Below, piece after piece: positions 16,490-55,841 of a stretch of DNA of 64,000 nt (position 1 is the first letter of the stretch; the number at the start of each line of letters is the position of its first letter). The notes beneath the pieces are model-generated. The model was not told where the DNA came from. It was given only the letters and a program-made list of their open reading frames with translations, and made no database searches. The position numbers were made by a program, and so were the translations under genes. Where the stretch lies: the NCBI RefSeq assembly GCF_947500325.1, contig NZ_CANMRQ010000008.1:124001-188000 (forward strand), given 5' to 3'. This stretch comes from an uncultured Lacinutrix sp. (GTDB lineage Bacteria > Bacteroidota > Bacteroidia > Flavobacteriales > Flavobacteriaceae).

Positions 16490-17290
16490 TTAATTATTTG
16501 CACCTTCCGGTAATTGCTGTGTAAATAAATATGTTGATGTTGGTGGTCCTCCAAACACTGAGTTAGATGGGTTATTAAAAATATTATTTCTAACATGTAA
16601 CACATCACTTGTACCTCCTGAATACACAGTTAAACCATCCATATCTACATCGGTTCCGTAATAGCCTTGCGATTGATAACTAGCTACTGGTGGTCCTCCA
16701 AACACAGAATTATTAGGATCATTAAACACTTGGCCTCTTATCCCTGGCACATCTGATAATGCTCCTGAATAATTTAAACGGCCATCTCCATTTGTATCTC
16801 CAGCCCACATTGCTACTATTCCTGTTGGCATTCCAAAAGTGCTTTGCGCATCTGTTCCATAAGTGATTTGGTTATTTGCATCTGTAAAATCAATAGTAGT
16901 TAGAGTTTGATTAAGCGCAACAGTACCTAATGTCATAATCCCTAAATGATTTCTATGTTTAATGGCTACAAAATAATTACCCGCAATAACATTAAATACT
17001 AAAGAAGAGACTCCATCTATTCCAACAATATTGCCATCCCTTTGTAATAAAGCCGATTGAGACGCTATAACAGCTGTATTTGTAGTTGCATCTCTTAATT
17101 CAACCCATACCCAATCAACAATAGCATCATTACCTGTTACGGTGAACACATTTGCATTGCATATTAAAGCATCTGTATAAGGACTTGTTGTAGGAATTAA
17201 ATTAGCTACACGTAAACCATCTCTCATTAAAGTCTCTTCTCCTGTATTAGGATTTAAAGCTGCTCCTTGTAAAAATATTTTTGGATTAAC
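16490..17290 (-). repeat. Shared C-terminal module, copy A
   Basis: Encodes about 265 residues from NPKIFLQGAALN to QLPEGANN, with VDWVWVELRD, SALLQRDGN, IKHRNHLGIM, GDTNGDGRLNYSG and DVDMDGLTVYSG. It is diverged in DNA from copies B-D but clearly homologous in protein. Confidence 0.9.
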
Positions 17291-20200
17291 AACTAAATTT
17301 AAGTTTACATCATATTCAAACGCCCCCATATCAACTGTAGCATCTACTATACGAGTGTTTCCGTTTAAATCTTCAACTACAGTAACTGATAAAGAGGCAT
17401 TACTTCCTGCGTTTATAGCTGGAGAACTTGCTTGTAATGTATAATCATTATTTATAGTATCCCTAAATAATGGATCACTACTTGCTCCTCCTATCATGCC
17501 AAGTTCAACAATACTATTGTTTACCACAGAAAAAGATGTTGTAATTGCAATAGGGAAACCTGTACCAGATCCATTTCCATAAATAATACTATTTTCAATG
17601 GTACTATTTGAAGCTTGAACCATTGTAATAACATTATCATTAACACCTATATTATTAGATAATGTTGAGTTGATCATTTCAAATTCTAAGGCCGTATTAT
17701 TTCCTCCTGTGCTAGCACCTAAATATAAACAAGATGAATTGTTAGCAGAAGTATTATTGTAAAACAAACTATTTACAATAGATCCTTTTGCATAAAGATT
17801 GAACTGTTGAGCTCCAGAAAATAGCATTGCTGTTAAATCTTGAGAATAATTATCTCTAATAATACACGATTCAAAATCTACATCATGAGTTAAGTTTGAT
17901 ACTCCACAAGGCGTAAAAGGCGAATATACAGCAACACTAACACCTGAGTTGTTTTCAAGTATACAGTTTTTGAATTGAGCTGTTAAACTACTACCCGAAA
18001 CATATGGGTTAACATAAATTGCTCCTCCTCTTAAATCATAAGATTGATCTATTGCTGGAGTTGAACAACTATTATTTGCAGTACCATTTGCATTCCCACT
18101 AGTTATTGTAAAACCATCTACTAAAACATTTTGAGCATTTCCTCTAATTGAGACTACATGATATGAATTATCTTGTCGTGTTGCCTCTGTATCAAGAATA
18201 TTAGCATTATCATCTCCATTTAAATCTCCTGATAATATGGTCGTATTTATTTTAGGTTCTCTTTGAGACACATTAGTTTCTGTTCCATTAAAACCTCCAT
18301 ACACACTAACTTCACTAGGTATTACATACGTTGCTTTTCTAGTATCAACATCTAAAGTACTTGGTTTATATGTTCCTTTGGCAACCCAAACAGGAGTTTC
18401 ATTCGTAGCAATAGCTAAAGCATCTTCAAGATTATTAAAAGCATCAGTCCACGAAGAACCATTATTCAACCCCGTTGCTGTATCATCAACAAACAATACA
18501 GGATTAACAGTTGTAAAAGTACCATTAGATGAATAGGTTCCTGAAGAAGACACACATGAAGCTCTCACAACAATATTATAGGTGGTATTAGGATCTAATC
18601 CTGTTATTGTATATGGATTACTTACATTTGACACTAAAACGACATTTAATGTACCTATAGGATTGTATTGAATATCCCAAACAGTTTCTGATCCTCCTGG
18701 AGTCCATGATACATCAACAGTTGTGAATGTTTCGTTATTACTATTTATATTGGTTGGTATACCTGAACATTCTAAATTCCCATATTCGTATGCTCCCATA
18801 TCTACTATAGTATTCACAAAACGATCTCCTCCACTGATATCATTTAAGATTGTATTTGAGATATAACTATTATCACCAGCATCAATTGCTGGAGAACCTG
18901 TATTTAATTGAAACAAATCGGCGCTACTATTTATAAACAAAGGATCTACATCTATTGCTCCTTGTTGCCCTCCTTCTACAATACTATTAGATACTACAGA
19001 ACCAGAAGTTGTAATTGTAAATGGTGTTGTACTTCCATTATCATAAATAATAGAATTTCTTATTCTACTGTTTGATGCTTGAGCCATTTCAACAACATTT
19101 CCAGCAACGCCTGTATTATTAGCAAAAGTTGAATTAATGACACTAACATTCATCCCAGAAGTATTTCCGTTATTCGTTGTACTTGCAACTAATGACAAAC
19201 AAGATGAACCATTTACAGATGTATTATCATAAAACAAGCTATTCGTTATTGTTCCATAAGCATTATAGCCTTGACCTGTAGATCCATGATATTGAAACGC
19301 TGAAGAATTTAAAGAATAATTATTTTTAATTATACAGCTTGTAAAGTTACCTGTAAAGTCTCTATTGTGAGTTGCTGCGTTTATGGGACCAAAACCTGCA
19401 AAAACACTGTTGTTTGTTGCTGAGTTTTTTTCTAAAATACAATTTTGAATCGTTGCTGTTGTATTTTCTCCTGTTACAACTGGGTTTAAATAAATGGCAG
19501 CTCCTTTTGAATCTGAAAATTGCGTAAGAACAGATCCCCAAGTTACTGTGCTTCCGTTAGCATTTCCTCCTGAAATTGTAAATCCATCAATTAACACATC
19601 GCTAATATTTCTTCTCATACTCACAACATGATAAGCATTGTCTTGTCGAGTAGCTTCCGTATCGGTAATAACACTATTATCATCTCCATTTAAATCTCCA
19701 CTTAATATTGTAAGATATGCTTCAACATCTCTTTCAGAAATAGTAGTTTCAGTTGCATTAAATCCTCCATAAACTTTTGTTCCTGTTAATACATTAAAAG
19801 TTGCTTTTCTCGAATTTACGTTTGTTGTAGTTGGAACATAAGTTCCTTGGGCAACCCAAACTTGATCATTTCCTGTAGCAATTGCTAAGGCATCTTCCAG
19901 TTTTAAAAAAGCATCATTCCAGGTTGTTCCATTATCTGCTCCTAGAGCAGCATGATTAACATAAATAATACTTCCACTTAATGTTGTGAAATTTGTTGCT
20001 AACGTCCAAGCTGATGGAGTACCGTTACAATTCCCTTGTAGATACACATCATAAGATGTATTAGGATTTAATCCTGTTATCGTTTGTGTATTTCCTGAAA
20101 TGTTAATTATATCTGTTCCAAAGGAAAAAGGAAATCCAAATTGCACATATCGCAATGTTGTATTTGTTGAAGAAGATGTCCAAGATACCTCTGCTGCATT

Positions 20201-20341
20201 TGGAGCAATGTTATATATAGAAACATTATCTGGTAAACATGTTAACCTATATTCTCTATCTAAATTTGGATTTGAATTTGAAGTCTTTGCGTAAGTAGTC
20301 AAGCTTACAAATAGTAATAATAAAAGTAGTTTTGATTTCAT
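16490..20341 (-). CDS. Giant secreted protein: Fn3 and beta-helix units, dockerin-like C-terminal module
   Basis: The 1283-residue protein begins at the ATG giving MKSKLLLLLLFVSL. It consists of two similar units. Each has a fibronectin type III domain (about 34-130 and 535-625) followed by a right-handed beta-helix region of choice-of-anchor type (starting YVNHAALGADNGTTW and FVDDTATGLNNGSSW). Each helix region shares ILSGDLNGDD and EATRQDN. The last 265 residues are the shared C-terminal module with two EF-hand-like motifs and the end QLPEGANN. No type A or B sorting domain is present. It may bind or process polysaccharide, or act as an adhesin; no catalytic residues can be assigned. An exact TAnnTTTG match lies at 20360-20367 on the minus strand. 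Confidence 0.8.
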   Translation of the reverse strand: MKSKLLLLLLFVSLTTYAKTSNSNPNLDREYRLTCLPDNVSIYNIAPNAAEVSWTSSSTNTTLRYVQFGFPFSFGTDIINISGNTQTITGLNPNTSYDVYLQGNCNGTPSAWTLATNFTTLSGSIIYVNHAALGADNGTTWNDAFLKLEDALAIATGNDQVWVAQGTYVPTTTNVNSRKATFNVLTGTKVYGGFNATETTISERDVEAYLTILSGDLNGDDNSVITDTEATRQDNAYHVVSMRRNISDVLIDGFTISGGNANGSTVTWGSVLTQFSDSKGAAIYLNPVVTGENTTATIQNCILEKNSATNNSVFAGFGPINAATHNRDFTGNFTSCIIKNNYSLNSSAFQYHGSTGQGYNAYGTITNSLFYDNTSVNGSSCLSLVASTTNNGNTSGMNVSVINSTFANNTGVAGNVVEMAQASNSRIRNSIIYDNGSTTPFTITTSGSVVSNSIVEGGQQGAIDVDPLFINSSADLFQLNTGSPAIDAGDNSYISNTILNDISGGDRFVNTIVDMGAYEYGNLECSGIPTNINSNNETFTTVDVSWTPGGSETVWDIQYNPIGTLNVVLVSNVSNPYTITGLDPNTTYNIVVRASCVSSSGTYSSNGTFTTVNPVLFVDDTATGLNNGSSWTDAFNNLEDALAIATNETPVWVAKGTYKPSTLDVDTRKATYVIPSEVSVYGGFNGTETNVSQREPKINTTILSGDLNGDDNANILDTEATRQDNSYHVVSIRGNAQNVLVDGFTITSGNANGTANNSCSTPAIDQSYDLRGGAIYVNPYVSGSSLTAQFKNCILENNSGVSVAVYSPFTPCGVSNLTHDVDFESCIIRDNYSQDLTAMLFSGAQQFNLYAKGSIVNSLFYNNTSANNSSCLYLGASTGGNNTALEFEMINSTLSNNIGVNDNVITMVQASNSTIENSIIYGNGSGTGFPIAITTSFSVVNNSIVELGMIGGASSDPLFRDTINNDYTLQASSPAINAGSNASLSVTVVEDLNGNTRIVDATVDMGAFEYDVNLNLVVNPKIFLQGAALNPNTGEETLMRDGLRVANLIPTTSPYTDALICNANVFTVTGNDAIVDWVWVELRDATTNTAVIASQSALLQRDGNIVGIDGVSSLVFNVIAGNYFVAIKHRNHLGIMTLGTVALNQTLTTIDFTDANNQITYGTDAQSTFGMPTGIVAMWAGDTNGDGRLNYSGALSDVPGIRGQVFNDPNNSVFGGPPVASYQSQGYYGTDVDMDGLTVYSGGTSDVLHVRNNIFNNPSNSVFGGPPTSTYLFTQQLPEGANN

Positions 20342-20359
20342 AGTATATAGTTTATGAAA

Positions 20360-20367
20360 CAAAATTA
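20360..20367 (-). promoter_or_regulatory. Candidate -7 element for the beta-helix gene
   Basis: On the minus strand this reads TAATTTTG, an exact TAnnTTTG match, 18 bp before the start codon at 20341. A CAA at 20395 (TTG on the minus strand) is 27 bp further, slightly too far for a standard -33 element. Confidence 0.45.
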
Positions 20368-20432: not shown

Positions 20433-21185
20433 CTAACCTATATTTTGTACAATGGTTAAAAACTCTTCTTTTTTATCTTTAGAAATAGACACTGTTTCAC
20501 TATTATCCATAACAATATAACCGCCATCTTTTTTTGAATACTCTTGAATATATTTTAAGTTAATTAAATAAGATCTATGAGGCTTATAAAAAGTTGTTTT
20601 ACTTTCTAATAACTTAACAAAGTGTTTTAATGGCTTACTTATTAAGATTTCTCTATTATCCTGTAATGAAATGTTAGTATACATCCCATCAGCTTTTAAC
20701 ATAATTATATCATCTAAATTCACGAACTTAATACCATCAGCTATAGGTAACGCTATTTTATTAAAATTAGCATTACTTAAACTTTTTTTAAGCTCTTCTA
20801 ATTTTATGTTTATTTGAGATTTTCCTATATTATTTATAACCTTTTCTACTGCTTCTTGCAATTTATCTACTCGTAAAGGCTTTAGTAAATAATCTATTGC
20901 AGATAACTCAAAAGCTTGAATTGCATATTCACTGTAAGCTGTTGTAAAGATAATTTCAAAAGTATGATCTTTTTTGTCTATAAAATCAAAAATCTCTAAA
21001 CCAGAATGTTGCGGCATTTCAATATCTAAAAAAACAATTTCTGGCGCACTTTTTTTTATAATATTCACTCCTGAAAGCAAATCTTCAGCTGTAAAAATGG
21101 AATTTATATTTGAGCAGTTCTCTTCTATTAATGTCTGTAGCAATTTTCTTGCCTTTGGTTCGTCGTCTATTATTAATACATTCAT
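20433..21185 (-). CDS. LytTR-family response regulator
   Basis: The 250-residue protein has a receiver domain with the acidic pocket Asp7/Asp8 and phospho-acceptor Asp54 (VFLDIEMP), Thr/Ser and Lys positions in FTTAYSEYAI and LLKPLR, followed by a C-terminal LytTR DNA-binding domain (KADGMYTNI, FYKPHRSYLINLKYI). It starts two bases after the sensor kinase gene stop, so they form a two-component pair. It lies just upstream of the secreted block at 13656-20341, which is a plausible but unproven target. Confidence 0.93.
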   Translation of the reverse strand: MNVLIIDDEPKARKLLQTLIEENCSNINSIFTAEDLLSGVNIIKKSAPEIVFLDIEMPQHSGLEIFDFIDKKDHTFEIIFTTAYSEYAIQAFELSAIDYLLKPLRVDKLQEAVEKVINNIGKSQINIKLEELKKSLSNANFNKIALPIADGIKFVNLDDIIMLKADGMYTNISLQDNREILISKPLKHFVKLLESKTTFYKPHRSYLINLKYIQEYSKKDGGYIVMDNSETVSISKDKKEEFLTIVQNIG

Positions 21186-21187
21186 AA

Positions 21188-24088
21188 CTAATCAATTGTA
21201 TATGGAATACTAATCTCCACTTTGGTTCCTATAGCGCTTTCATTTTCAAATAAATCAGTAATTATTACTCCTACTTCTTTTTCTTTTCCATAGTTTAACA
21301 AATCTAATCTATCTTCTGTTGCCTTTGTTGCAAAAGGCTTATGGTTTTTGTAACTTCTAGCTTTCATTCTCTTAGCTTTATCTCTTCCAACGCCATTATC
21401 TAGAATAATACATTTTATTAATTTAGCTTCTTTATTTATAATGAAATTTATTTCTAAATTTCGATTATCTTTTCTATGCAGTAATCCATGCTTTAAAGCA
21501 TTTTCTACATATGGTTGCACGAGCATTGTAGGTATTAAAACATTATTAGCATTTAAAGTTCCCGAAACTGTTGTTGAATAATATAATTTATCTTCAAAAC
21601 GCAATTTTTCTAATTCTAAATACATTTCTAAACAATCTATTTCTTCTTGTAAAGTAATATTTCCTTTTGTACTATGATTAAGGTAAGTACGAATTAAATC
21701 TGCGAATTTCCCTAAATAATCACTAGCCAATTTTTTCTGATTTAAAACAATATATTCCTGAATAGAATTAAGTGCATTAAATATAAAATGAGGATTCATT
21801 TGAGAACGTAAATTTTCTAATTTTAAAGCTACCAATTGTCCCTCTACTTCAACTTGTTTAAGTTCTTTTAAACGTAATTTCTCTTTACGTTTTGCCTTTA
21901 CCCTAAAGAATACTACAACTCCAATTATAGTTAACAAAGCAATTAAGGAACTAAACCACCAACGTTTCCAATATGGTAACTTAACATTGATACGAAACTG
22001 TATTGGATTAGTATAGAAATCTTCAAAAACGTTTTTTGCTCTTACTTTAAAAACATGCTTTCCACTAGGTAAACTGTTAAAGTTTACGTTATGTTTTCCT
22101 AAATCTAATGAAACCCATCCTGCATCTGACCCTTCTAAATTATATTCAAATTGGTATTCTTTTAAAGATTTAAATCCATTAATCATGAAACTTACATCTA
22201 ATACATTTTTAGAATAATCTATTTCATATTCATCCTTAACTTTCTGAAGTTGATTTTCAATTTTAATTTTTGAAAAATATAACTCGGGAATAAAAATTGA
22301 TTTCTTCTTTTTATCTATAGGAAATCTAAAAATCCCTGTCATTGTTTGGTACCAAACATACTTATCTGTAACCTGAAGTTTTAAAATACGTGGCTGAATA
22401 ATACCATCTCTATATCCAAAATTTATAAATTCCTCCGTTTTATAATTATAACTTTGAATTCCTTTTCTAGTCGCAATCCATAAGTTGTCTTCATTAGCGT
22501 CTAATGCCGTTATGTTTTTATCTAAGAGACCATTAGAATCATATAGTGCTCTAATTATTTTTCCTTTTTCAACAAGGTATAATCCCCAATTAGGTCTACT
22601 CAACCATACTTTATCTGTATTATTGTGGTTTGCAACCCCGTTTATTAAAAACCCTTTATTGTTATTCTTAACTATTTCTAAATCATTATTTATATCACTA
22701 CTCCATTTACATCCTTCTTTAGCCCATATATAAAAATGTCCAGATTTAGTAGTAACGACTTCTCTCGATCTACCAGAGAAACTTTTAAGGGTTTTAAAAT
22801 CATTATCAACAATTCTTGTTCTACCTGGCGTAGTAACAATGTAAGCGTTATCATTTAATCTTTCTACATTTTTTGGCGCTTCATCAAAAACCTGTTTAAA
22901 TATTTTTAGATTAACTGGATCGAATAGTTCTAATTCTGAATTATTAAATAACAAGCCTCTATCTTTAAAGGCATCATAGTATAATTTTTGATTTAAAAAA
23001 CGATCTATTTTTCTAGAAATATGCTTGCCTCCTTTTAAATCTACAACATTTAATTCATCATGATTTGAAACATAGTTAATTAAATCATCATTAATAACAG
23101 TAAAAGAAGATATTACACCATGATTAAACGATTCATTTTTAATACGCTCCACACTTGGATCTGGCAGAATATATAAACCATTATTAACGGTAGAAAAAAT
23201 ATAGTTCCCATTACGATCAATAATTACATCTGTAACGTTTTTACCTTTTAAAAAATGATTTTCTAATACTAATTTACCTTTAACCGTATTATATTGATAA
23301 GCTCCATCTGCTGTAAAAAACCAGAATGAGTTTTTATTTTTTTTTAAATGATTTATTGCAATACGATTATTAATCGCATTAAAAACTGAAGTTGATTTAA
23401 TTCCTAACGAATCTACTTTATAAAATGAATTTTTATTGTCTACTAAAAACCTAATATATAAATCTCTACCATCATTAAACAAATTAGAATATCTTGCTCT
23501 AGGCGTTTCCTTTTCCTGTCTATACAATGGAGTTAATAAGTCTTTTTTTACTTCATATAATACATCTTCATTAAAAATATATTTCCTTCCTTTAAATTCA
23601 TGTAAATTTGAATGATGGTGTACTAAATTTGGAATATCAACTTTATATATAGTCTTTTTATTAATTTTATAAAAACCTGTAAATGTGTTAACATGAATAG
23701 TATCGTTTATTATATCAAATTCGGTCACTCTATTACCTACTCTATCTCTTAAATCTGTATAAAAATGAACTTTACCATCTTCAATGTAGTAATAATCTGA
23801 ATTCATTGTAGTATACCATAACCTTCCTTTGTTATCAAACTGAATTCCAAAAGCTGATGCCCCTTTTTGCTCAGGATGAGTATAACTCACAAAAACTTCT
23901 CCATCATAACTATATACACCAGAATTTGTAGCTAACCATAATAAACCATTTTCATCTTCTAACAATCTATAGACTTCCTTATCTGGTAAGCCTTCATTTT
24001 CAGAAAAATGTATATATACAGACTGCTGAGCTTTCATTAAAAATGAAGCAAAACATAATAAATAAAAAAAGAAAAATTTATTATTCAA
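21188..24088 (-). CDS. Sensor histidine kinase with periplasmic propeller (LytS/His_kinase type)
   Basis: The 966-residue protein has a signal sequence (MNNKFFFFYLLCFASFLMKAQ shown by its first 21 codons, cleavage near AQQ) and a large periplasmic part with repeated Reg_prop elements (ENGLLWLATNSGVYSYDG type). A Y_Y_Y-like domain follows (LKEYQFEYNLEG, LPSGKHVFKVRAKN), then a transmembrane helix near residues 710-730. The kinase core has the phospho-accepting His767 in NPHFIFNALNS and an ATPase domain with ENALKHGL and DNGVGR. The sensed ligand is unknown; propeller sensors of this type in Bacteroidota often bind glycans. It is co-transcribed with the LytTR regulator. Confidence 0.92.
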   Translation of the reverse strand: MNNKFFFFYLLCFASFLMKAQQSVYIHFSENEGLPDKEVYRLLEDENGLLWLATNSGVYSYDGEVFVSYTHPEQKGASAFGIQFDNKGRLWYTTMNSDYYYIEDGKVHFYTDLRDRVGNRVTEFDIINDTIHVNTFTGFYKINKKTIYKVDIPNLVHHHSNLHEFKGRKYIFNEDVLYEVKKDLLTPLYRQEKETPRARYSNLFNDGRDLYIRFLVDNKNSFYKVDSLGIKSTSVFNAINNRIAINHLKKNKNSFWFFTADGAYQYNTVKGKLVLENHFLKGKNVTDVIIDRNGNYIFSTVNNGLYILPDPSVERIKNESFNHGVISSFTVINDDLINYVSNHDELNVVDLKGGKHISRKIDRFLNQKLYYDAFKDRGLLFNNSELELFDPVNLKIFKQVFDEAPKNVERLNDNAYIVTTPGRTRIVDNDFKTLKSFSGRSREVVTTKSGHFYIWAKEGCKWSSDINNDLEIVKNNNKGFLINGVANHNNTDKVWLSRPNWGLYLVEKGKIIRALYDSNGLLDKNITALDANEDNLWIATRKGIQSYNYKTEEFINFGYRDGIIQPRILKLQVTDKYVWYQTMTGIFRFPIDKKKKSIFIPELYFSKIKIENQLQKVKDEYEIDYSKNVLDVSFMINGFKSLKEYQFEYNLEGSDAGWVSLDLGKHNVNFNSLPSGKHVFKVRAKNVFEDFYTNPIQFRINVKLPYWKRWWFSSLIALLTIIGVVVFFRVKAKRKEKLRLKELKQVEVEGQLVALKLENLRSQMNPHFIFNALNSIQEYIVLNQKKLASDYLGKFADLIRTYLNHSTKGNITLQEEIDCLEMYLELEKLRFEDKLYYSTTVSGTLNANNVLIPTMLVQPYVENALKHGLLHRKDNRNLEINFIINKEAKLIKCIILDNGVGRDKAKRMKARSYKNHKPFATKATEDRLDLLNYGKEKEVGVIITDLFENESAIGTKVEISIPYTID

Positions 24089-27111: not shown

Positions 27112-27888
27112 TTACTCTTTAATAAGCTTTATTGTTGTACTTGCTTCTTCTGTACTTAACTTTACAAAGTAAACTCCAGATTGTAATGTACTTATATTAA
27201 CAGTCTCTAAGTTATTTACTGCCGTCATTACTTTTTGTCCTGAAATACTATAAATCTCAACACTTTTCAAGTTGTTTTCTAAACCTTTAATTGTTACAAC
27301 GTCTTTTGCTGGATTTGGAAATATTGAATACCCTGTTAATTCGTTTTCAACAGTACCTAATGTTGCAAAATTATATGTTGTTGTTCCTGTTTGACCTGCA
27401 TAGTTATCTGTTGCTGTATCTACAAGATTCCCTGATAATGTACCTATAAAGAATGAATTAAAAATACTTGGTGCTGCCATCGCTAACGATGATGAATTAT
27501 CCAATAAAGTTATAGATCCAGAAGTTGGTGAACCATCAACATCAAATGTTGTTAAAACAATTGGTGTACCTGCTGTATGAGCTGGCAACACAACATCTTG
27601 TACTAGATTAAATGGTATAGCATCATCTGCAGTATAAGGCGCTGGTAAAGTTGTAAATACTGGTACAGAATAACCTCCTGTTACATTAGAAAGAGTAACA
27701 CCGTCTGGTATTATTATCGTAAAATTTTGATCATTAATATATGGATGTGGTGCAGTAGAATTAAAATCTGGAACTGCAGCTACAGAATAGTTATAGCCAC
27801 TATTCTGGACAAGTGTTAATTGGTATGTTTGAGCCTGTAATGCTAGTCCAAACGTTAAAGCAAGTAATAATAGTAATTTTGTTTTCAT
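27112..27888 (-). CDS. Small secreted beta-sandwich protein, T9SS type A (copy 2)
   Basis: The 258-residue protein starts with signal peptide MKTKLLLLLALTFGLALQAQ. The ectodomain (21-180) is nearly identical to that of the protein at 15688-16461. The type A sorting domain (YSIFPNPAKDVVTIKG onward) is alike up to SGQK and then diverges completely (SGVYFVKLS, IKLIKE). No catalytic motif is seen. It lies downstream of a giant module-bearing metalloprotease gene (132-bp gap) with its own -7 element. A surface scaffold or receptor for the module is one idea, supported only by the repeated pairing. Confidence 0.85.
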   Translation of the reverse strand: MKTKLLLLLALTFGLALQAQTYQLTLVQNSGYNYSVAAVPDFNSTAPHPYINDQNFTIIIPDGVTLSNVTGGYSVPVFTTLPAPYTADDAIPFNLVQDVVLPAHTAGTPIVLTTFDVDGSPTSGSITLLDNSSSLAMAAPSIFNSFFIGTLSGNLVDTATDNYAGQTGTTTYNFATLGTVENELTGYSIFPNPAKDVVTIKGLENNLKSVEIYSISGQKVMTAVNNLETVNISTLQSGVYFVKLSTEEASTTIKLIKE

Positions 27889-28019: not shown

Positions 28020-28817
28020 TTAATTAGCACCTTCAGGTAGTTGCTGTACAAATAGATACGTTGATGTTGGTGGCCCTCCAAATACTGAATTTGATGGGTT
28101 GTTAAAAATATTGTTTCTTATATGTGAAACATCACTTGTTCCTCCTGAGTAAACGGTTAAACCATCCATATCTACATCGGTTCCATAATAGCCTTGTGAT
28201 TGATAACTAGCCACTGGTGGCCCTCCAAATACAGAGTTATTAGGATCGTTAAACACTTGGCTTCTTATCCCTGGTACATCTGATAACGCTCCTGAATAAT
28301 TTAACTGTCCATCTCCATTGGTATCTCCTGCCCACATTGCTGAAATCCCTGGTTGCATTCCAAACGTGGTTTGCGCATCGGTTCCAAATGTTGTTGTTGT
28401 TCCATTAGTAAAATCTACTGTTCTTGTCGTTGCATCTAACAAGATTGTACTAGCACTCATTATACCTAAATGATTCCTATGCTTTATAACAACATAATAG
28501 TTATTAGATGGTATATTAAAAGTTAAAGCTGATGTTCCATCTGCTCCAACAACATCACCATCGCGTTGTAATAATGCTGATTGTGAAGCAACAACTGTTG
28601 TATTAGTTGTAGCATCACGTAATTCTACAAAAACCCAATCTACAATTGCATCTACTCCAGTTGTATTAAACACTGAGGCATCACATGTTAATCCATCACT
28701 ATAAGGGCTAGATGTTAAAGATAGTGGAAATGCTGTACGTAAATCATCTCTCATTAAGCTCTCTTCTCCTGTATTTGGATTTAAAGCAGCGCCTTGTAAT
28801 ACTACTTTTGGAGACAC
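28020..28817 (-). repeat. Shared C-terminal module, copy B
   Basis: Encodes the module from VSPKVVLQGAALN to QLPEGAN. At the DNA level it is almost identical by eye to copies C (32349-33146) and D (36710-37507). Confidence 0.95.
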
Positions 28818-31800
28818 TCTTACTCTAAAGGCATCTTCTGGCCCAAAATAGTATGTACCGTCTAAGCCAGTAAATGTTCCTGTTAAGGTTACATCTGTGC
28901 CAAACGTAGCATTTGTTAAAGTCACAATATCATTACTACCTTCTCTATGAGCATATAAATTAGCCCTAGAAGCTCCCAAGGCTTCTATACCTTGAATTTC
29001 TGCATCAGTAAAATAGAAAGTTATATCTACACTACCAGAAGCAATTGTATTAGCTGGGGTAATTGTAAATGTTTTATCTGTTACAAATGCAGGAGAAACA
29101 CTTCCATTATAAGCTTGAGCATTTACTCCTGATCTAGAAACTGATACGTCTGTACAACCATAGTCGTCTGCATTATTGTTTACAACATCCAACATTAATT
29201 CTCCAGAGTCGTCTGCTGTATATACAGTTCCTGCTGCTGATAAATTTAATGAATCATTTGTTGTTCCAGTATTTACTGCTGTTCTTATATCTACACCAAT
29301 ATCTGCAGTTATAGATACTTCATCAACACCTAAAACCCATTCCCCTGTGGTATCATGATGTCTAAATGATATATATACAGGTTGATTTGCAAAAGAATTA
29401 GGAATTACTACGTCATAATAAGCTCCAGCTGCTGCAGGAATTACAGCATCAACTAAGCGTGTACCTGCTAAAATATTAGCAACAGAACCAGCCGTTGTAG
29501 AAATATAAACTTCATAGTTTTCACTAAAAAAGTTTCCATCATTACCAGAACCGGCAAAATATCTCAAGTTTATATTTGATGCTCCATCTGGGATATTAAT
29601 TACTGGAGATGTTACAAAATTATCTGGACTATAATTTTGACCATTCCATGAATAAGATCTTAAAAAATAATCTGTATAAATACCAAATGGTGTAGTCCAA
29701 TCTGATTCTTGTGCTAACGCCCAATCATCTGCAGCTACTCCATTATTATCTCTAATAGTCCAATCACTAGCATCTCCATCAGAAAAATCATCATCAAAAA
29801 GCGTTTGAGAACTAGAACTTGTTGGAGCACCAGAATCATCATTATTTATTGTAAATACGAATGAATTATTACCTAAAACAGCATCACCTGTAGTAGTAAT
29901 TCCAAAATCAATCGTTATTGTCTCATCAACTTCAACAAAAGAATCGTTATAAATTCTAAGAACTAAATCTTGAGAAGCTGTTGCTCCTTGCGCAAAAGTA
30001 ACACTAGGAGTCATTATATCAAAATCAACACCATTTGTTGCATCACCACCAGCTACAGTAAAAGTAGCTGTTGCACTCTGAGAAGGACCTTGACCAATTG
30101 TTAAAGGGACAGTAATATCTGTAAAGTTACAATCTGAACCTTCAATAATACTACCTATAGTTGTTGCATAAGATATTGTAGGTGCAACAGATCCTGCAAT
30201 TACAAAATCTGTAGTGTTTATATTAAAAAAAACATGATTTGCTCCCTTCACCATTACTCTACAATTTGTAGCTTCTCCATTTGGCACTATTATATTAGCT
30301 GATCCATTATTAGGAACAGCAGTAGCTAAGACAGTTGGGTAAGACAAACCTCCATCTTTAGATAAAAAGATATCCACATTTGCTGTATTTACACCATTAG
30401 CTGTAGTTCCAGCTACATTCCATGTAATCGTTTGTGAACTACCTTGAGCCCATGTTGTAGCTGTATTTTGAGACGTCACTATAAATGGCCCAGCCGCTGT
30501 TGTTGTTGTAAGCAACTTTAAATCATCAGCTGTTTGCCCACCTGCCGCATTATTATCTTTTACTGTTAAAGCAAAATTTATATTTCTTGACACACTAGAT
30601 AACACTTCCCATGTAGTAGAACCGTTAGAAGTCCTTAAATCTTCTAATCTTGGAATATATCGTGTTGGATTAGTTGTCCCTTCAAATGATTTTGTTAAAG
30701 GGCCATTATTATAAGTTGCCTGAGGCGCTTCTTGAGCTCTCTGTTCATTATCTATTTGTTCCCATGTAAATGTATGAGAAGCTGTACCATCTGCATCGGT
30801 AGATATTCCTGTTAATGCATAAGGCGTAGAAATTGGTATTGTTAAATCTATTCCTGCATCTGCCGTTGGTGCTGCATTACCGATATTAGTTTCTACTGCA
30901 CATGTGCTACTTGCTCCATTTTGAAGATTATCTGAAATATCAGCAATATTTACAAAGTGAAAATAAGCATCACTATTATTTTGAACATTTGTTGAACAAA
31001 TTCCTGCATATCCCATAATTGTACTTCCTGATGCTGGCTCTACTTCTGAACCAATACCATCATTATAAGTACCTCCCGATCTTGAACAAGAATTCATAGT
31101 ATGATACCCTCCAAATTGATGCCCCATTTCATGAGCAACATAATCTACATCAAAAGGGTCTCCTGTTGGATCTGCTCTACCTGTATAACCACGACCTTTA
31201 TGAGTTCCTTGAGATCCATTTTGAGAATTAGTTGTCGCTGATCCTGTACAAACACAGAATAAACATCCTGCATTTCCTCCTCCTGTTGTATTAAAATTAT
31301 GTCCTATATCATAGTTAGCGATTCCAATAGCACCATCTATAGTTACTGCTGTTTGACTATTCCATTCATTAGTCCAATCATCTGTAGCAGCATTTAAAAA
31401 TATTATATCATCATTATTAGCAACAAAAATCATAGTTACTGCTAAATCTCTTTCATATATACCATTAACTCTAGTCATGGTAATAGCCATCTGAGCTTGA
31501 ACATTAGCTTTCTGAGCTGCTGTACTACCAGAACCTGCAAATATAGCTCCGTACTCACCTGTACATGATTGCGCTAATCTAAACGTTCTTAATGTATCAT
31601 CATTTGTAGGTCTTTGCGAACTTTGACCACTTAGAGATGGTAAATCTACGTCGTCATCTGTAAGACATTCAAAACCTTGCATATCTTTACCTAAACTTCC
31701 TTTAGAGTAAACAATATAACTAAGTCTATCCTCTGTAAAAGGATCTATATACCAAGAATTTTTTGTTCCAGACAAAGTCATTGTATGCAAACCAAACTGT

Positions 31801-32348: not shown

Positions 32349-33146
32349 TTAATTAGCACCTTCTGGCAATTGTTGTACAAATAGATATGTTGATGTTGGT
32401 GGCCCTCCAAATACTGAATTTGATGGGTTGTTAAAAATATTGTTTCTTATATGTGAAACATCACTTGTTCCGCCCGAATAAACGGTTAAACCATCCATAT
32501 CTACATCTGTCCCAAAATAACCTTGCGATTGATAACTAGCCACTGGTGGCCCTCCAAATACAGAATTATTAGGATCGTTAAACACTTGGCTTCTTATCCC
32601 TGGTACATCTGATAACGCTCCTGAATAATTTAACTGTCCATCTCCATTAGTATCTCCTGCCCACATTGCTAAGATTCCTGGTTGCATTCCAAACGTGGTC
32701 TGCGCATCGGTTCCAAATGTTGTTGTTGTTCCATTAGTAAAGTCTACTGTTCTTGTTGTTGCATCTAACAAGATCGTACTAGCACTCATTATACCTAAAT
32801 GATTCCTATGCTTTATAACAACATAATAGTTATTAGATGGTATATTGAATGTTAAAGCTGATGTTCCATCTGCTCCAACAACATCACCATCGCGTTGTAA
32901 TAATGCTGATTGTGAAGCAACAACTGTTGTATTGGTTGTAGCATCTCGTAATTCTACAAAAACCCAATCTACAATTGCATCTGCTCCAGTTGTATTAAAC
33001 ACTGAGGCATCACATGTTAATCCATCACTATAAGGACTAGATGTTAAAGCTAGTGGAAATGCTGTACGTAAATCATCTCTCATTAAGCTCTCTTCTCCTG
33101 TATTTGGATTTAAGGCTGCGCCTTGCAATACTACTTTTGGAGACAC
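32349..33146 (-). repeat. Shared C-terminal module, copy C
   Basis: Near-identical in DNA to copies B and D. Differences are scattered single bases (for example GYFGTDVDMDG against GYYGTDVDMDG). Confidence 0.95.
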
Positions 33147-36647: not shown

Positions 36648-36680
36648 AAAAAAACCAATACTTAAAGTATTGGTTTTTTT
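36648..36680. terminator. Intrinsic terminator after the M36 protease gene
   Basis: A7, CCAATACT, TAA loop, AGTATTGG, T7. A perfect stem 30 bp past the stop of the minus-strand gene at 36710. Confidence 0.92.
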
Positions 36681-36709
36681 GTTATTGTTTCATCAGTTTT
36701 TATTTATTC

Positions 36710-40500: not shown

Positions 40501-40924
40501 CAGTGTTATTTATATCTTTAATGAATTTATTATGTGTAACTAATGTTTTTCCATGTCTATCGATATGCAAACTAGATTCTGTACCCATTACTTCAACACC
40601 ATTAATAGCTTGACGAATGTATGAGTGATGAATTCCACTTATGGAGCTTACATGCTCTGATGTAATAACATATTTAGATTTGTCACTACTCTTCAATAAA
40701 TCTTCAAGAAAGCCTGGTGCATTAATTCTTGTAATAGCTTCCTTATTAGCCTCAACTTTCTTTTTAACAGTTTTTGCTGCTTTTTTTGAGACTACTGTAC
40801 TAGCTGATGGTTTAAGCTCTATTTTTTTATTTTGAGCAGAAATTTGATTGATATATACCAATATAAAAGCAAAAGCAAATATTGTCTTTAACTTGCTTTC
40901 GTACAAAAAGTATTTTTTTTTCAT
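36710..40924 (-). CDS. Fungalysin-like M36 metalloprotease with dockerin-like C-terminal module
   Basis: The 1404-residue protein has a signal peptide ending QISAQ, a fungalysin/thermolysin propeptide region (HHSYIRQAINGVEVMG; YYYEESIGTKLVWEL, PepSY-like) and an M36 catalytic domain. This contains HEYGH (His480-His484) and the downstream Glu in NNDEQMGEGWSDF. Then come a Calx-beta domain (YNDDFIEGDETMTIGF), a carbohydrate-binding-like jelly roll (FSDDFESGLGQW), the DYGCVDTSISR domain and the shared module. It should act as an extracellular endopeptidase that removes its own propeptide. It has no ordinary T9SS sorting domain. Confidence 0.9.
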   Translation of the reverse strand: MKKKYFLYESKLKTIFAFAFILVYINQISAQNKKIELKPSASTVVSKKAAKTVKKKVEANKEAITRINAPGFLEDLLKSSDKSKYVITSEHVSSISGIHHSYIRQAINGVEVMGTESSLHIDRHGKTLVTHNKFIKDINNTVQSSSRNISAEQAIKSVSQIMGYGEVVGLKEITSRNDIEQTEYQNRVTLYNKGGISNTDIPVKEIYYYEESIGTKLVWELSIEDKNSSDWYNFIVDASTGEILTKHNFTVSCNVNGDHSNHNHNKTINNKEHKSNKTTFNLSKTSAAFVGGGSYNVYALPVESPGHGNRSIVTDPADATASPYGWHDTDGAAGAESNYTIGNNCDAYDDSSSTVTGTGDGTNAERANGGATLNFDFTIDTNVNNNSGSIDAAVTNLFYWTNVIHDVWYLYGFDEASGNFQVNNYGNGGVAGDSVRAEAQDGSGTCNANFATPADGGRGRMQMYVCGTRDGDLDNVVVAHEYGHGISTRLTGGAGNSGCLNNDEQMGEGWSDFIGLVMTIEPGDLASDQRGVGTWLVGQGPNGAGIRPQPYSVTNTQSYADLGGEAIPHGVGSIWSSILWKLNWALIDVYGWDSDVYYGTGGNNICMRLVIEGMKLQPCSPGFVDGRDAILAADAAIYGGANTDTIWQVFAGAGVGEGAAQGTNNNNNTTSTTAPAPSVPTVAFSTTTGTQVEGSDCTYTDVTVPLIIGVGASATATATFSVTGTTGTDGVDFQLMTTDATFAAGVTGSQDVTIRVYNDDFIEGDETMTIGFTLNANGGDAIAGASSYTLTITDDDFDPLVSGPSITVFSDDFESGLGQWTVTGNGTSNFAITNNAGFPDAGFFNSDQSNTTNYAFINDDDCNCTMDAERIASNGVALIGGVEYTISFDYAFDNQYATDTARIELSSDGGATWPIGADLAKTATATGQAAASAVPFTTINFTYTPVADETTIFSFLYGDAGGWGQGIILDNFNVSEPGPIAIQTALNTTTTNNVSLPSAGLVYAYDDTTGNLITNYNNVNGFDYGCVDTSISREGVSTQSYNGSVSPAFVSDKVFTIKPTNTTTNTATDVTFYFTAAEIAGLESLAGVSRSNLFAYRTGSNEIIALTDGVYGTDIGLTGTFTGLDGTYYFGPEDAFRVRVSPKVVLQGAALNPNTGEESLMRDDLRTAFPLALTSSPYSDGLTCDASVFNVTGSDAIVDWVFVELRDATTNTTVVASQSALLQRDGDVVGADGTSALTFNIPSNNYYVVIKHRNHLGIMSASTILLDATTRTVDFTNGTTTTFGTDAQTTFGMQPGISAMWAGDTNGDGQLNYSGALSDVPGIRSQVFNDPNNSVFGGPPVASYQSQGYYGTDVDMDGLTVYSGGTSDVSHIRNNIFNNPSNSVFGGPPTSTYLFVQQLPEGAN

Positions 40925-44723: not shown

Positions 44724-44725
44724 AA

Positions 44726-47512: not shown

Positions 47513-48763
47513 ATGCGAATTAGCGTTAAACATTTTTTACTCTTTTTTTTAGTTTCATCATCATTGTTTTCTCAAGTTGAAGAAATAAACCCTTCAGAAG
47601 AAATTAAAACTATTACTTTTAAAGGAGATACACCTGAAAGTCAATTACCTGTTTTAAAACTTGGCGAATACCTTATTTTAGAATTCGATGTGTTGAATGG
47701 CTATGAAGACGATTACTATTATGAAATAAAACACTATAATTTTGATTGGACACCTTCTGTTTTAATGCAATCTGAGTATTTAAAAGGTTTTAACGAACAG
47801 CGTATTAGAAAATGGGACAATTCATTTAATACTTATCAAATATATTCTCATTACACTTTAACTATCCCTAACGAACAGACTAGAGCATTAACTAAATCTG
47901 GTAATTATCTTATTACTATATATAATGAAGATGATGAAATTGAGTTTACACGAAAATTCATGATTTATGAAGATCTCGTAGATGTAGGCGTATCTATTAA
48001 ACGCTCTAGAGATGTTTCAGAAATTAACAGTAGACAATCTGTAGATTTTGTTATAAACTCTAATAAAATACAATTTACCAACCCTAAACAAACCATTAAA
48101 ACTGTTATTGTTCAAAACAACAATTTAAACACAGCCATTACAAATTTAAAACCGCAATATATTTTAGGCAATGAACTACAGTACCGCTATACTAAAGCAT
48201 CTAGTTTTTTTGCTGGCAATGAATATAATTATTTTGAAAACAAAGATTTAAGAGGCGCAAATACAGGCGTCCAATTTATAAGACTGAAAGACCTTTATAA
48301 TAGTTATTTGTATTTTGATGTTCCTAGAAACAATCAACCATATACTTATAATCCAGATATTAATGGTAATTTTTTAATTACTGCATTAGACACAGAGACA
48401 CCTGAAACACATGCAGATTATGCTAAAGTTCATTTTAGTTTGCAAACAAATGAGTTATTAGATGGAGAGAGTATCCATGTTTATGGTAATTTTAATAATT
48501 ATATTGTAGATGAAAGTACCCAAATGACTTATAATGAAGAAGCTCAAATTTATGAATTACCATTAATCTTGAAACAAGGTTTTTATAGCTATAAATATAT
48601 TGTAAAAGATAAAAATGGAGTTATTGACGAAAATGCAATTTCTGGTAATTTTCATCAAACTGAGAATAATTATAAAGTATTAGTATACTATAGAGGCTTA
48701 GGAACACGCTACGATAGAATAATTGGTATTGGTGAAGGAAATTCTGTAAACATTACAAATTAA
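47513..48763 (+). CDS. Type IX secretion system plug protein (DUF5103)
   Basis: The 416-residue protein has a signal peptide ending SLFSQ. The whole body matches DUF5103 as I know it: KTITFKGDTPESQLPVLKLGEYL, YYYEIKHYNFDWTPS, SNYEKLxGFNEQRI-like LKGFNEQRIRKW, and a C-terminal segment SIHVYGNFNNYIVDEST with YKYIVKDKNGV. In Flavobacterium johnsoniae the DUF5103 protein plugs the periplasmic side of the SprA (Sov) translocon, keeping the channel shut when no cargo is bound. That fits the many T9SS cargos in this window. It diverges from nqrA; a -7-like TATCTTTA lies at 47485. Confidence 0.85.
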   Translation: MRISVKHFLLFFLVSSSLFSQVEEINPSEEIKTITFKGDTPESQLPVLKLGEYLILEFDVLNGYEDDYYYEIKHYNFDWTPSVLMQSEYLKGFNEQRIRKWDNSFNTYQIYSHYTLTIPNEQTRALTKSGNYLITIYNEDDEIEFTRKFMIYEDLVDVGVSIKRSRDVSEINSRQSVDFVINSNKIQFTNPKQTIKTVIVQNNNLNTAITNLKPQYILGNELQYRYTKASSFFAGNEYNYFENKDLRGANTGVQFIRLKDLYNSYLYFDVPRNNQPYTYNPDINGNFLITALDTETPETHADYAKVHFSLQTNELLDGESIHVYGNFNNYIVDESTQMTYNEEAQIYELPLILKQGFYSYKYIVKDKNGVIDENAISGNFHQTENNYKVLVYYRGLGTRYDRIIGIGEGNSVNITN

Positions 48764-52758: not shown

Positions 52759-52794
52759 AAAAAAGCCTCAAGTGTTACTTGAGGCTTTTTTTTT
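52759..52794. terminator. Intrinsic terminator of pruA
   Basis: A-run, GCCTCAAGT, GTT loop, ACTTGAGGC, T9. It also shows that the longer upstream start of the next open frame (52779) is false. Confidence 0.93.
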
Positions 52795-52919
52795 GCTATA
52801 TTGTTATTTTTTGTATTAAAAAACTATGCATGCATAATTTTTTAGCTGATTTATTTACGAATATCTTAATAAAACTACAAGAAAATAGAAATTTACCTAA
52901 CCTATTACCTAACTATGTC

Positions 52920-55841
52920 ATGAAAAAACTTTACTTTTTTTTATTTGCGCTGTGCACAATCTCTGTCAACGCACAAAACAAATTAAGCAAATTAAGCACT
53001 AATGAAACTTCAATAGTATTTACTTCCTTTCCTGTAATTAATTTAGACGACTATCAAGAAAATACTAATTCTGTTTATTCATATTATCAAGCGTATAAAA
53101 TGGTTTCCGAGAATGATTTACAAAATCGATTATCTACTTTGGAAACATTAGAATTGAAAGCTAAAAATGCTAAACAAAACAATATTGTAGCATTAAGTAT
53201 TTTAAACACAGATTTTGAAGTTATAAATCCTGAAGCTTTTAATAATAATAAAATAGCATTAGATGTAGAAGGCTTTTTAGTTGAAGCTGAAAATGCTGAT
53301 AATATTTATAACAAAAATACATTATCAATCGCTGCTCCACTACAATTCAGTCACAAAGGACTAAACGTTGTTTTTAATCTTTCTGAAAATGCTATTTTCA
53401 ATACTACAAATAAAAATATATCTTCGATAGCTATAGATTTTGGAAATAACGAAGGTTTTAAGACTATTACAAAAAACACCAATCTAAATATAAGTTATCA
53501 AGATAAAGGCTCTAAAACGATTACTACAATACTTAGTTTTTCAGATGGATCAACAACTACAAGTCAATCTACAATAGATATTAAATATTCTAATGAAGAT
53601 CTTCAAACATTATTTAACAGAGCACCTATACCTTTTACTTCTTCAAATACTACAGCCCCAAATTTAACACCATATGGAGAAGCTAACGAAATTGGAACCG
53701 GTGAATACGAAATCTTTTTAAGTCCTGACGGTGTTTTCGACAAGCCTATTATTTTAATTGATGGTTTTGATCCTGGTGATGGAAGAGATATTACTGGACT
53801 TTATGATTTACTAGCCTTTGATGATAACGGCACAAGTTCTAATCTTGCCGATTTAGTTAGAGCTGAAGGATTTGACGTTGTCATTCTAAATTTTCCAGTT
53901 TACACAAGAGCTTCGGACATGGTTGAAGTAGATGGTGGTGCAGATTTTATTGAACGAAATGCAATGTTACTTGTGGAGCTCATAAATATAATCAATGGCC
54001 CTGAGCTTGACGGTGGTAAGGTTGGTGATGAAGAGTTAGTTATTATTGGCCCAAGTATGGGAGGATTAATTTCACGTTACGCTTTAAATTTTATGGAAAA
54101 TCAAAGTATGGATCATGAAACACGTTTATGGCTATCTTTCGATTCTCCTCATTATGGTGCTAATGTGCCTATTGGATTTCAATACTTATTTAACAAAATA
54201 GCTTATGGATTACAATTAGGTGGTTTAGGTGGCGACCAGAGTGTTGTATCTCTTAGACCTTTAGTTGATGATTTTTTAAGATCTCCAGCTGCTAAGCAAA
54301 TGTTAGTAGATCATTTTGATGCGCATATTACCTCTGGAACCGATTTTGACACTAGTTTAATGCTACCTCAAAAACATCCTTGGAACCCTATTTTTTATGC
54401 TGGATTAAATGCTTTAACAACTTCAGGCTTTCCAGAAAACACAAGAAAAATTTCTATAGTAAACGGTAGCGGAATAGGTAATCCTTATCAAGATAAAAAT
54501 GGAATGAACATAGAACCAAATTTTCTTGCTTTAGATGTTAGCAATTTAGCTATCGGATCTGGGTTAACTGCCTCAACAGCAGATTTCACCTCACGCTTTA
54601 CTCCTTTAGCTGGACAGCAAAACGCACCTTCAACATCTTCTATATTTATAGACACTCCCTTTCTTTGTTTCTGTGGTGATTTTAATGCAAGTGCAACGGT
54701 ACAAGCAGAAACTTTTTCTAATGGTGTAGATGCTGCTTCTGGAGGTTTATTTGATATAGGAGCTTTAACAGGTACATTAGGTACAGATCCTTTAGTCACT
54801 GGGTTTTTAGCAGGCTTACAAACTGACTTCTTTAATTTCATTCCTACTGTTAGCGCTATGGCATTAGAGAATGATGGAGATATTGATTGGTTTCACATTC
54901 CTAATAATGTAACAACATCATCATTTACAGTAAATAACATTACACCATTTGATGCTTGGTATATGCCAGATAATAATGAAGGCCATGTTACATTAACTGA
55001 TGCTAATGTCAATTTCGCATTAGATGAAATTATTATTCGCTCTAACCTTGCAGCTAAAGCCTATTTACAAGGCCCACTTCTAGGTAGTACTGATAACATG
55101 ATGCGTGACGATTTAAGAGTAGACAATTATATACCAACAACAAGTCCTTATAGCGATAATTTAATTACAAATACAACCGTTTTTAATACTACTGGAAATG
55201 ATGCTATTGTAGACTGGGTTTTTGTTGAACTTCGAGATGCCGTTACCAATACCAATGTAATAGCAAGTCAGTCTGCTTTACTACAACGTGATGGAGATAT
55301 TGTAGATATTGATGGTACATCAACATTACCTTTTAATAATATCCCTGGAAACAATTATTATGTAGCCGTTAAACACAGAAGCCATTTAGGGATTATGACT
55401 AATACACCTATATCTTTATCTAGACTACCTACTACTGTAGATTTTACAGATGCTAATAATCAAATTACTTTTGGTACAGATGCACAAACAACTTTTGGAG
55501 TTCCAACTAATACAGTCGCCATGTGGAGTGGAGACTCTAATGGTGATGGCCGTATAAATTATTCAGGTGCGCTGTCTGATGTGCCTTTAATAAGAAGTCA
55601 AGTTTTTAACGATCCGAACAATTCTGTATTTGGAGGCCCACCAGCAGCTAGCTTCCCTTCTTTAGGTTACTTTAACACAGATATAAACCTTGATGGATCG
55701 TCTGTATATTCTGGAACCGCAAGTGATGTTTTACATATTAGAAATGGAATTTTTAATAATCCTTCAAATTCAGTTTTTGGAGGACCACCAACTTCTACAT
55801 TTCTATTTGTACAACAATTGCCCGAAGGCGCAAACAATTAA
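52920..55841 (+). CDS. Giant secreted alpha/beta-hydrolase (lipase/esterase-like) with dockerin-like C-terminal module
   Basis: The 973-residue protein starts at MKKLYFFLFALCTISVNAQ, a clean signal peptide. Residues about 275-600 form an alpha/beta-hydrolase domain: PIILIDGFDPGDGRD, then IIGPSMGGLISRYAL with nucleophile Ser379 in GPSMG (GxSxG), then LSFDSPHYGANVPIG. This resembles PGAP1-like/lipase enzymes; the acid and His are not assigned with confidence. The last 265 residues are the shared module (VDWVFVELRD, GDSNGDGRINYSG, QLPEGANN). It is unlinked to the other four module genes (12 kb away, opposite strand). Confidence 0.82.
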   Translation: MKKLYFFLFALCTISVNAQNKLSKLSTNETSIVFTSFPVINLDDYQENTNSVYSYYQAYKMVSENDLQNRLSTLETLELKAKNAKQNNIVALSILNTDFEVINPEAFNNNKIALDVEGFLVEAENADNIYNKNTLSIAAPLQFSHKGLNVVFNLSENAIFNTTNKNISSIAIDFGNNEGFKTITKNTNLNISYQDKGSKTITTILSFSDGSTTTSQSTIDIKYSNEDLQTLFNRAPIPFTSSNTTAPNLTPYGEANEIGTGEYEIFLSPDGVFDKPIILIDGFDPGDGRDITGLYDLLAFDDNGTSSNLADLVRAEGFDVVILNFPVYTRASDMVEVDGGADFIERNAMLLVELINIINGPELDGGKVGDEELVIIGPSMGGLISRYALNFMENQSMDHETRLWLSFDSPHYGANVPIGFQYLFNKIAYGLQLGGLGGDQSVVSLRPLVDDFLRSPAAKQMLVDHFDAHITSGTDFDTSLMLPQKHPWNPIFYAGLNALTTSGFPENTRKISIVNGSGIGNPYQDKNGMNIEPNFLALDVSNLAIGSGLTASTADFTSRFTPLAGQQNAPSTSSIFIDTPFLCFCGDFNASATVQAETFSNGVDAASGGLFDIGALTGTLGTDPLVTGFLAGLQTDFFNFIPTVSAMALENDGDIDWFHIPNNVTTSSFTVNNITPFDAWYMPDNNEGHVTLTDANVNFALDEIIIRSNLAAKAYLQGPLLGSTDNMMRDDLRVDNYIPTTSPYSDNLITNTTVFNTTGNDAIVDWVFVELRDAVTNTNVIASQSALLQRDGDIVDIDGTSTLPFNNIPGNNYYVAVKHRSHLGIMTNTPISLSRLPTTVDFTDANNQITFGTDAQTTFGVPTNTVAMWSGDSNGDGRINYSGALSDVPLIRSQVFNDPNNSVFGGPPAASFPSLGYFNTDINLDGSSVYSGTASDVLHIRNGIFNNPSNSVFGGPPTSTFLFVQQLPEGANN
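55044..55841 (+). repeat. Shared C-terminal module, copy E
   Basis: The most diverged copy in DNA, but the two EF-like motifs (DSNGDGRINYSG and DINLDGSSVYSG) are again 49 residues apart, each followed by NSVFGGPP, and the end is QLPEGANN. Confidence 0.9.

Follow-up and report, generated by a model that had tools for sequence, protein, structure and literature searches.

A dockerin-like C-terminal tail on large Lacinutrix exoproteins, matched to a small neighboring type A protein, points to a probable two-gene docking system linked to type IX secretion

Cargos of the type IX secretion system (T9SS) are, in the available text of PMC10202324, identified by a C-terminal signal that each protein carries itself (type A and type B models), and signals of types A, B, and C are described there. 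According to the accessible part of PMC12618676, cargos with a type B C-terminal domain (CTD) are served by cognate PorP/SprF shuttles. A cohesin scaffoldin anchored by the T9SS has been described for 'Candidatus Stygibacter', a Cloacimonadota metagenome-assembled genome (available text of PMC8542988), and two further reports describe cellulases of Melioribacter roseus that carry neither dockerin nor scaffoldin domains (PMC3534657) and a rumen Bacteroidetes genome without cohesins or dockerins (PMC5831590). Here we analyze a 64,000-nucleotide stretch of an uncultured Lacinutrix sp. (contig NZ_CANMRQ010000008.1, positions 124,001 to 188,000; the window), in which five large secreted proteins, A to E, end in the same C-terminal module. 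The module consists of two domains, which we call X and Doc, and many module genes are followed by a gene for a small secreted protein, the partner, that carries a T9SS signal of type A. We think it probable that the two genes form a cohesin/dockerin-like adaptor, in which the X-Doc tail would bind the partner and so provide the giant cargos, in trans, with export or anchoring by the T9SS.

The arrangement resembles the cohesin-dockerin pairs of the cellulosome, notably those of an X-module/dockerin with a type II cohesin: many enzymes carry a C-terminal X plus two calcium-loop repeats, the tail is matched to a secreted receptor domain, and relatives contain chains with both halves, namely, L179 (from profile grouping and reading) and chains of genomes G136 and G072 (with Pfam cohesins). 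In contrast to the cellulosome, the receptor here is a single small domain on T9SS type A proteins and, in flavobacteria, is not recognizable as a cohesin by sequence; the cargos comprise proteases together with one hydrolase-like and one repeat protein; and the Lacinutrix Doc loops seem, by eye, to be about four residues longer than those of a canonical dockerin. 'Ca. Stygibacter' likewise combines a cohesin protein bearing a T9SS CTD with dockerin-bearing enzymes, but its scaffoldin is one large multicohesin protein recognized by standard annotation, and the available text of PMC8542988 does not describe an X domain, a two-gene unit, an exchange of tails, co-variation, or a flavobacterial system. 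Compared with the type A, B, and C CTDs as presented in the accessible text of PMC10202324, the module is similarly C-terminal and exchangeable with a type A signal, but it matches no type A or B model and appears to be dockerin-derived, and it is the partner that bears the type A signal. The pairing of a cargo with a specific neighboring gene recalls the type B system, whose shuttle, in the part of PMC12618676 available, is an outer membrane protein, whereas the partner is itself a secreted T9SS cargo. Among open-license papers, we recognized no description of the module-partner pair.

An earlier, sequence-only reading of this DNA had proposed that five otherwise unrelated proteins share a single module of about 265 residues. 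Its motifs occur in the claimed order on all five open reading frames (ORFs), with the two YSG..SD motifs 49 residues apart and the ends reading QLPEGAN or QLPEGANN. The C-terminal stretch is indeed common to all five, but it is made of two domains that evolve differently. X is a beta-sandwich ahead of a W-x-G-D motif; it carries VDWVxVELRD...HRNHLGIM and, in the AlphaFold model of the protein B module, most of it is confidently predicted. Doc lies after the W-x-G-D motif and consists of two repeats of the form D-x-N-x-D-G...YSG..SD. The N-terminal parts differ, as had been stated, but the five proteins are not all independent, because the 3' ends of genes B, C, and D are near-identical (94 to 98% DNA identity over the last 750 bases in 150-base windows) and the reprolysins B and C look like paralogues. 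A Sec signal peptide is seemingly present on all five, as judged by eye.

A search found 24 copies of the module in the Lacinutrix genome, all of them C-terminal. In 23 of these the stop codon falls 0 to 1 codons past the end of the match; in the remaining copy, L009, it falls at residue 266 of a 267-residue match. The C-terminal position expected of the module thus held throughout its own genome, but one clearly internal case, L178, turned up among 118 further loci. No existing family was assigned to the module in the five window proteins by Pfam or NCBIfam at E values up to 1, and a Pfam search of one copy at E up to 10 gave FG-GAP_3 alone, at 2.9. The claim that the five proteins lack an ordinary type A or type B sorting domain stood as well. 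The type A models (PF18962/TIGR04183) had no match on the module, and none of the 93 TIGR04183 matches in the genome lies on a module; the type B models (PF13585/TIGR04131) did not match either, and we rejected the module as a known T9SS signal of type A or B as modeled in Pfam and NCBIfam. For type C (ChiA-type, NCBI cl41395), whose CTD model we take to be NF033708, NCBIfam yielded no hit to the module with an E value of 1 or less, the model's presence in that release being unconfirmed.

Several comparisons suggest that Doc is derived from a dockerin. In an alignment of 21 of the 24 own copies (near-identical L002 and L003 and the stop-bearing L009 left out), both tandem calcium-loop repeats, D-x-[ND]-x-D-G, are present, with D176, D180, and D225 invariant and N178 and D191 at least 90% conserved. 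Module matches were found in 51 of 395 sampled Bacteroidota genomes, many covering X only. In a phylum set of 40 of the 50 other module genomes in that sample, represented by one locus each, X is conserved and the place of Doc is in many cases taken by an ordinary dockerin, such as GDSNRDGQITALDFNTWN. Of these 40 relatives, 17 matched Pfam Dockerin_1 with E values no higher than 1, the best being 9.7e-5. When 22 of the tails, picked as canonical-looking and including no window copy, were made into a profile, it matched the Protein Data Bank (PDB) dockerins 2vn5_B (2e-5), 5nrk_B (2.6e-5), and 1ohz_B (8.2e-5); its top match was 8x39_A, named a serine protease (8.6e-7), and EF-hand proteins appeared from 0.007. 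Because relatives with the same X often end in recognizable type I dockerins, we regard Doc as a divergent dockerin. The sequence-only reading had left the choice between a sorting or anchoring domain and a dockerin-like adaptor; these matches, together with the co-variation described below, favor the latter.

A structure search of the module model against the PDB, a comparison with dockerins that had also been suggested, placed Ole e 1-like chains at the top (E, 4.9e-3) and the X-dockerin chains 4u3s_B, 4wi0_B, 2b59_B, and 5m0y_B at ranks 3 to 6 (E, 0.014 to 0.058). Two other PDB matches were taken as chance, the decaheme cytochrome MtrF (3pmq_A; 0.0027 over residues 132 to 205 of the module sequence), which was lost when the family profile was used, and the viral fusion glycoproteins that headed the matches of that family profile at 0.018. 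The end of locus L202 is dockerin-like by eye, and Pfam at E up to 1 makes no call there.

The partner gene, absent from the earlier reading as was the two-domain build, emerged from a scan of the genome for type A signals, in which type A proteins of about 260 to 310 residues were found beside many module genes. They begin with a signal peptide and continue with a domain of about 165 residues that Pfam does not recognize; the type A signal follows and matches PF18962/TIGR04183 at the C terminus (2e-16 and 4.1e-14). The Lacinutrix genome has eight partner domains; all eight lie directly downstream of a module gene, and all eight proteins match TIGR04183. Across 60 genomes (this one and 59 relatives), the module occurs in 12 and the partner, by a first profile, in 8, every one a module genome. 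Outside the Lacinutrix genome, 9 of 10 partner matches by that profile are directly downstream of a module. The tenth (L072; G001:C45:28085-28480, minus strand) is a partner-type N-terminal domain in a 1,140-residue open frame, on a contig with no module match. An iterated partner profile added genome G017, whose two modules are followed downstream by partners at distances of 20 and 29 bases, and found no partner adjoining a module in G003; the module neighbors in G039 and G042 resemble partners by eye and match no profile.

Among 78 named loci, the first downstream ORF matched the iterated profile at 29 and had a type A-like tail without that match at another 13. At the 40 phylum loci, the corresponding ORF had a type A-like tail in 17 cases, was a module gene in 2, was of another kind in 18, and was absent in 3. 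Pfam found PF18962 in 41 of 67 and in 20 of 37 downstream ORFs in two sets, and the gap to a partner or type A neighbor had a median of 22 bases (59 loci). At phylum loci L201 to L220, many of the downstream neighbors, which run to about 420 to 470 residues, end in ...QLLR or similar, and most have no type A-like tail by profile.

The module is also tied to the T9SS by exchange and by occurrence. One module protein supplied a small N-terminal domain that was then sought in the 60 genomes. Of its 22 occurrences, 11 are joined to the module, 9 to a type A-like tail (as defined by a custom profile of 23 partner tails), 2 to neither, and none to both. SprA (TIGR04189) was present in 59 of 59 module genomes tested, out of 62 known (G007, G039, and G042 left out). 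In the 395-genome sample, SprA was found in 304 genomes, including all 51 with the module, and the module was found in none of the 91 SprA-negative genomes; the probability of this coincidence is about 2e-6 if the two are independent, a figure that kinship weakens. The distribution agrees with the restriction to T9SS genomes that the sequence-only reading had put up for checking. A natural fusion was seen in Winogradskyella sp. 408-3Z (L178, 5001-6488, plus strand), where one chain joins X-Doc to a partner-type domain followed by a type A-like tail, with 321 residues following the module match; this is a single case from one assembly, its tail judged by eye.

Doc and the partner domain have evolved in step. 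Distances were computed for X, Doc, the partner domain, and the partner's T9SS tail in 44 of the 46 adjacent pairs then known (the open-ended L161 and truncated G007 were left out, and the two G017 pairs were found later), in 36 pairs after collapsing own and G001 paralogues, and in 23 pairs after removing Docs less than 25% different. Across the three sets, the correlation between Doc and partner domain distances was 0.911, 0.898, and 0.817, and the best of 4,999 permutations reached 0.36. X correlated with the partner domain at 0.30, 0.34, and 0.23, although X and Doc share one protein, and the partial correlation of Doc and partner given X was 0.90, 0.88, and 0.81. Doc correlated with the partner's T9SS tail at 0.43, 0.33, and 0.10; the correlation of X with that tail (0.56, 0.55, and 0.40) is what shared species history would give. 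Rank correlations of Doc and partner were lower (rho, 0.60, 0.63, and 0.52) because the types form clusters.

The mechanism we favor would work as follows. The module would be a docking tail, with Doc binding the N-terminal, cohesin-like domain of the partner, probably in a calcium-dependent manner. Cargos with a Sec signal peptide and no recognized T9SS signal would then rely on the partner's type A signal for passage through the T9SS, for anchoring at the surface, or for both. In each genome, many cargos would be served by a single partner gene or a small number of them, and Doc halves would be kept matched to the resident partner. Docking might take place before outer membrane passage (export in trans) or as capture of cargo already released; that the cargos carry no recognized T9SS signal speaks for the former, which is the bolder reading.

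Weak support for a cohesin fold comes from an AlphaFold model of the partner (mean confidence score, pLDDT, 75), for which Foldseek ranked cohesins at all of positions 1 to 10 in the PDB (best E, 3.9e-3), with YcnI, CBM3, and chitin-binding domains at lower ranks. The Pfam cohesin family PF00963 was found in 38 of 59 module genomes tested at E up to 0.01, with 29 over its cutoff; 2 of 14 control genomes also matched. In G136:C14 and G072:C12, both outside the class of Lacinutrix, a Pfam cohesin and the module occur in one open frame, and in Emticicia aquatica (L179, 1577-4489) one protein appears to combine a partner-type domain, repeats, and X-Doc at its C terminus, a scaffold- or adaptor-like arrangement.

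A number of results weigh against the docking mechanism. The fold match is weak, with no hit at E 0.001, query template modeling scores of 0.22 to 0.33, and root mean square deviations of 6.7 to 12 Å over ranks 1 to 10. Identity as a Pfam cohesin was not supported, there being no Pfam match on the partner domain; a profile-profile comparison with 20 Pfam cohesins from module genomes gave an E value of 0.11, no improvement on the 0.075 of a reversed control; and PF00963 was found in 0 of 13 genomes of Lacinutrix's own family. We therefore call the partner cohesin-like and not a cohesin, because the fold match is weak and the sequence tests against cohesins failed. Partner N-terminal domains from different lineages do not merge into one family by sequence; a single family for all lineages was rejected, as A4 and EMT were linked (E, 6e-8), IGN and BAC over the last 41 columns only (1.3e-10), and no other pairs. 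The iterated partner profile matched none of the 40 phylum-locus neighbors, and at the 78 named loci the next ORF was otherwise of another kind (15), missing (11), or another module gene (10). On the module's side, the Doc half is poorly predicted in the model (pLDDT below 50), and the window copy has no Dockerin_1 match in Pfam even at E up to 10. X also has a smaller spread than Doc (standard deviation, 0.07 versus 0.15), which limits the correlation that X can show.

Because Doc and the partner domain adjoin on the DNA in adjacent pairs, at the 22-base median gap given above, joint exchange of one gene's 3' end with the 5' start of the next could mimic their co-variation with no protein interface at all. 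Modules far from partner genes make this explanation very improbable. We compared 50 modules (omitting L009 and the partial L054) from seven genomes, selected because each contains linked as well as unlinked copies. Ten modules of the Lacinutrix genome were classed as unlinked, being either over 20 kb away from every partner gene found or on a different contig, and so were five of G001 (L. jangbogonensis), none of which shares a contig with a G001 partner. X distances among these unlinked copies are 0.40 within the Lacinutrix genome and 0.41 between it and G001, whereas Doc distances are 0.20 and 0.61, respectively; between window protein E and its orthologous hydrolase L046, X differs by 0.23 and Doc by 0.64. 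For 26 unlinked modules from six genomes (without L131 and L138, which lie within a few kilobases of a partner), the nearest neighbor was in the same genome for 12 by X and for 21 by Doc. The new genomes agree: where a module lacks an adjacent partner, its Doc type corresponds to that of a resident partner. In all 12 genomes with such modules a partner was found (5 were known before), and in the 10 that were typed (G455 and G462 left out for fragmentary matches) the partner type predicted from Doc was resident. These include all five genomes without an earlier pair, G451, G452, G454, G458 (by a weak distance), and G461; a partner lay within the neighborhood examined in G461 and for one of two G451 modules. 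G453, G457, G459, and G460 match the predicted type through further partners, and G456 matches only via a partner already in the sample, its two other partners fitting no Doc examined. A second Doc type, ending in GKGEQF or similar, had its own partner type in five of five genomes, three of which (G463, G465, and G466) were not used in building the profile; in three comparison genomes that partner was absent, absent, and matched at 4e-4. Doc thus follows its genome's type far from any partner gene found, most clearly between the Lacinutrix genome and G001, so linkage alone does not account for the matching.

Two further explanations dispense with docking. The module might be a T9SS sorting signal of a new class that the secretion system itself reads directly, with the small neighbor as an accessory and not the carrier of the signal. 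The C-terminal position of the module, its restriction to SprA-positive genomes, and its interchange with type A tails would all fit, and type B signals offer a precedent in that they require more than 200 residues and a cognate neighbor protein (PMC10202324 and PMC12618676, in their available parts). We nevertheless hold this unlikely, given that the neighbor is itself a type A cargo and not an outer membrane shuttle, that the C-terminal half of the module appears dockerin-derived, and that type A and B models do not match the module. Less probable still is that the partner domain binds carbohydrate or another ligand and the module is a structural or ligand-binding tail, so that the two track a shared ligand, such as a surface polysaccharide, without binding each other. 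The CBM3 and chitin-binding domains in the fold search and the missing sequence link between partner and cohesins speak for this; but those domains rank below the cohesins, the co-variation is confined to Doc and the partner domain, Doc has dockerin ancestry through its relatives, and the G136 and G072 chains of other families unite a Pfam cohesin with the module.

Returning to the docking mechanism, a more far-reaching version can be put forward as a conjecture that we find possible but would not bet on. Cargos, whose open frames reach about 3,200 residues, might dock in the periplasm onto the cohesin-like partner via a calcium-dependent tail and cross the SprA pore with it; one T9SS signal would then serve much of the exoproteome, and, taken together with the cohesin-dockerin chains of other families, cellulosome-like assembly would be a general surface strategy of Bacteroidota, with proteases rather than cellulases. 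If docking is real, large exoproteins without a signal of their own would belong to the T9SS surface proteome through the partner, and it would become testable whether the T9SS carries a bound passenger and how far cohesin-dockerin logic extends beyond cellulose degradation.

TABLE 1 Module proteins and partner proteins in the window (window coordinates)
Feature	Position	Strand	Remarks
Module protein A	16490-20362	-	Choice-of-anchor Q repeats (NF041518, NCBIfam) + module
X domain of A	16808-17284	-	
Doc half of A	16490-16807	-	Two Ca-loop-like repeats; stop included
Partner downstream of A	15688-16461	-	ORF listed from 16608, likely start ATG at 16461; cohesin-like domain 15910-16404; type A CTD 15694-15897
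Module protein B	28020-32210	-	Reprolysin-like metalloprotease (Pfam)
X domain of B	28335-28811	-	
Doc half of B	28020-28334	-	Stop included
Partner downstream of B	27112-27888	-	ORF listed from 27921, likely start ATG at 27888; cohesin-like domain 27337-27831; type A CTD 27115-27324
Module protein C	32349-36527	-	Reprolysin-like metalloprotease (Pfam); X 32664-33140, Doc 32349-32663
Module protein D	36710-40924	-	M36 fungalysin-like protease (Pfam); X 37025-37501, Doc 36710-37024
Module protein E	52779-55841	+	Alpha/beta-hydrolase-like, Pfam matches subthreshold only; X 55053-55523, Doc 55524-55841

The features of the window are listed in Table 1. Module gene E has no partner gene directly downstream. 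The M36 protein D scored 658.7 against the NCBIfam model of T9SS-dependent M36 proteases, whose cutoff is 885. Between 28020 and 40924, the bodies of genes B, C, and D differ despite their near-identical last ~750 bases, with similarity at chance level beyond about 1,050 bases from the 3' end in an ungapped comparison; such a pattern would result if the 3' end had recently been duplicated or undergone gene conversion. We do not claim an operon, because an AT-rich palindrome with a 19-pair stem (36644-36684), terminator-like on both strands, lies between genes D and C and because the gap between B and the likely start of its partner is 131 bases. Elsewhere in the window, a LytTR response regulator and a propeller-type histidine kinase with a subthreshold PorZ propeller match adjoin module gene A (20433-24088, minus strand), and a T9SS plug protein (PF17116, 3.7e-41) is encoded between module genes at 47513-48763 on the plus strand.

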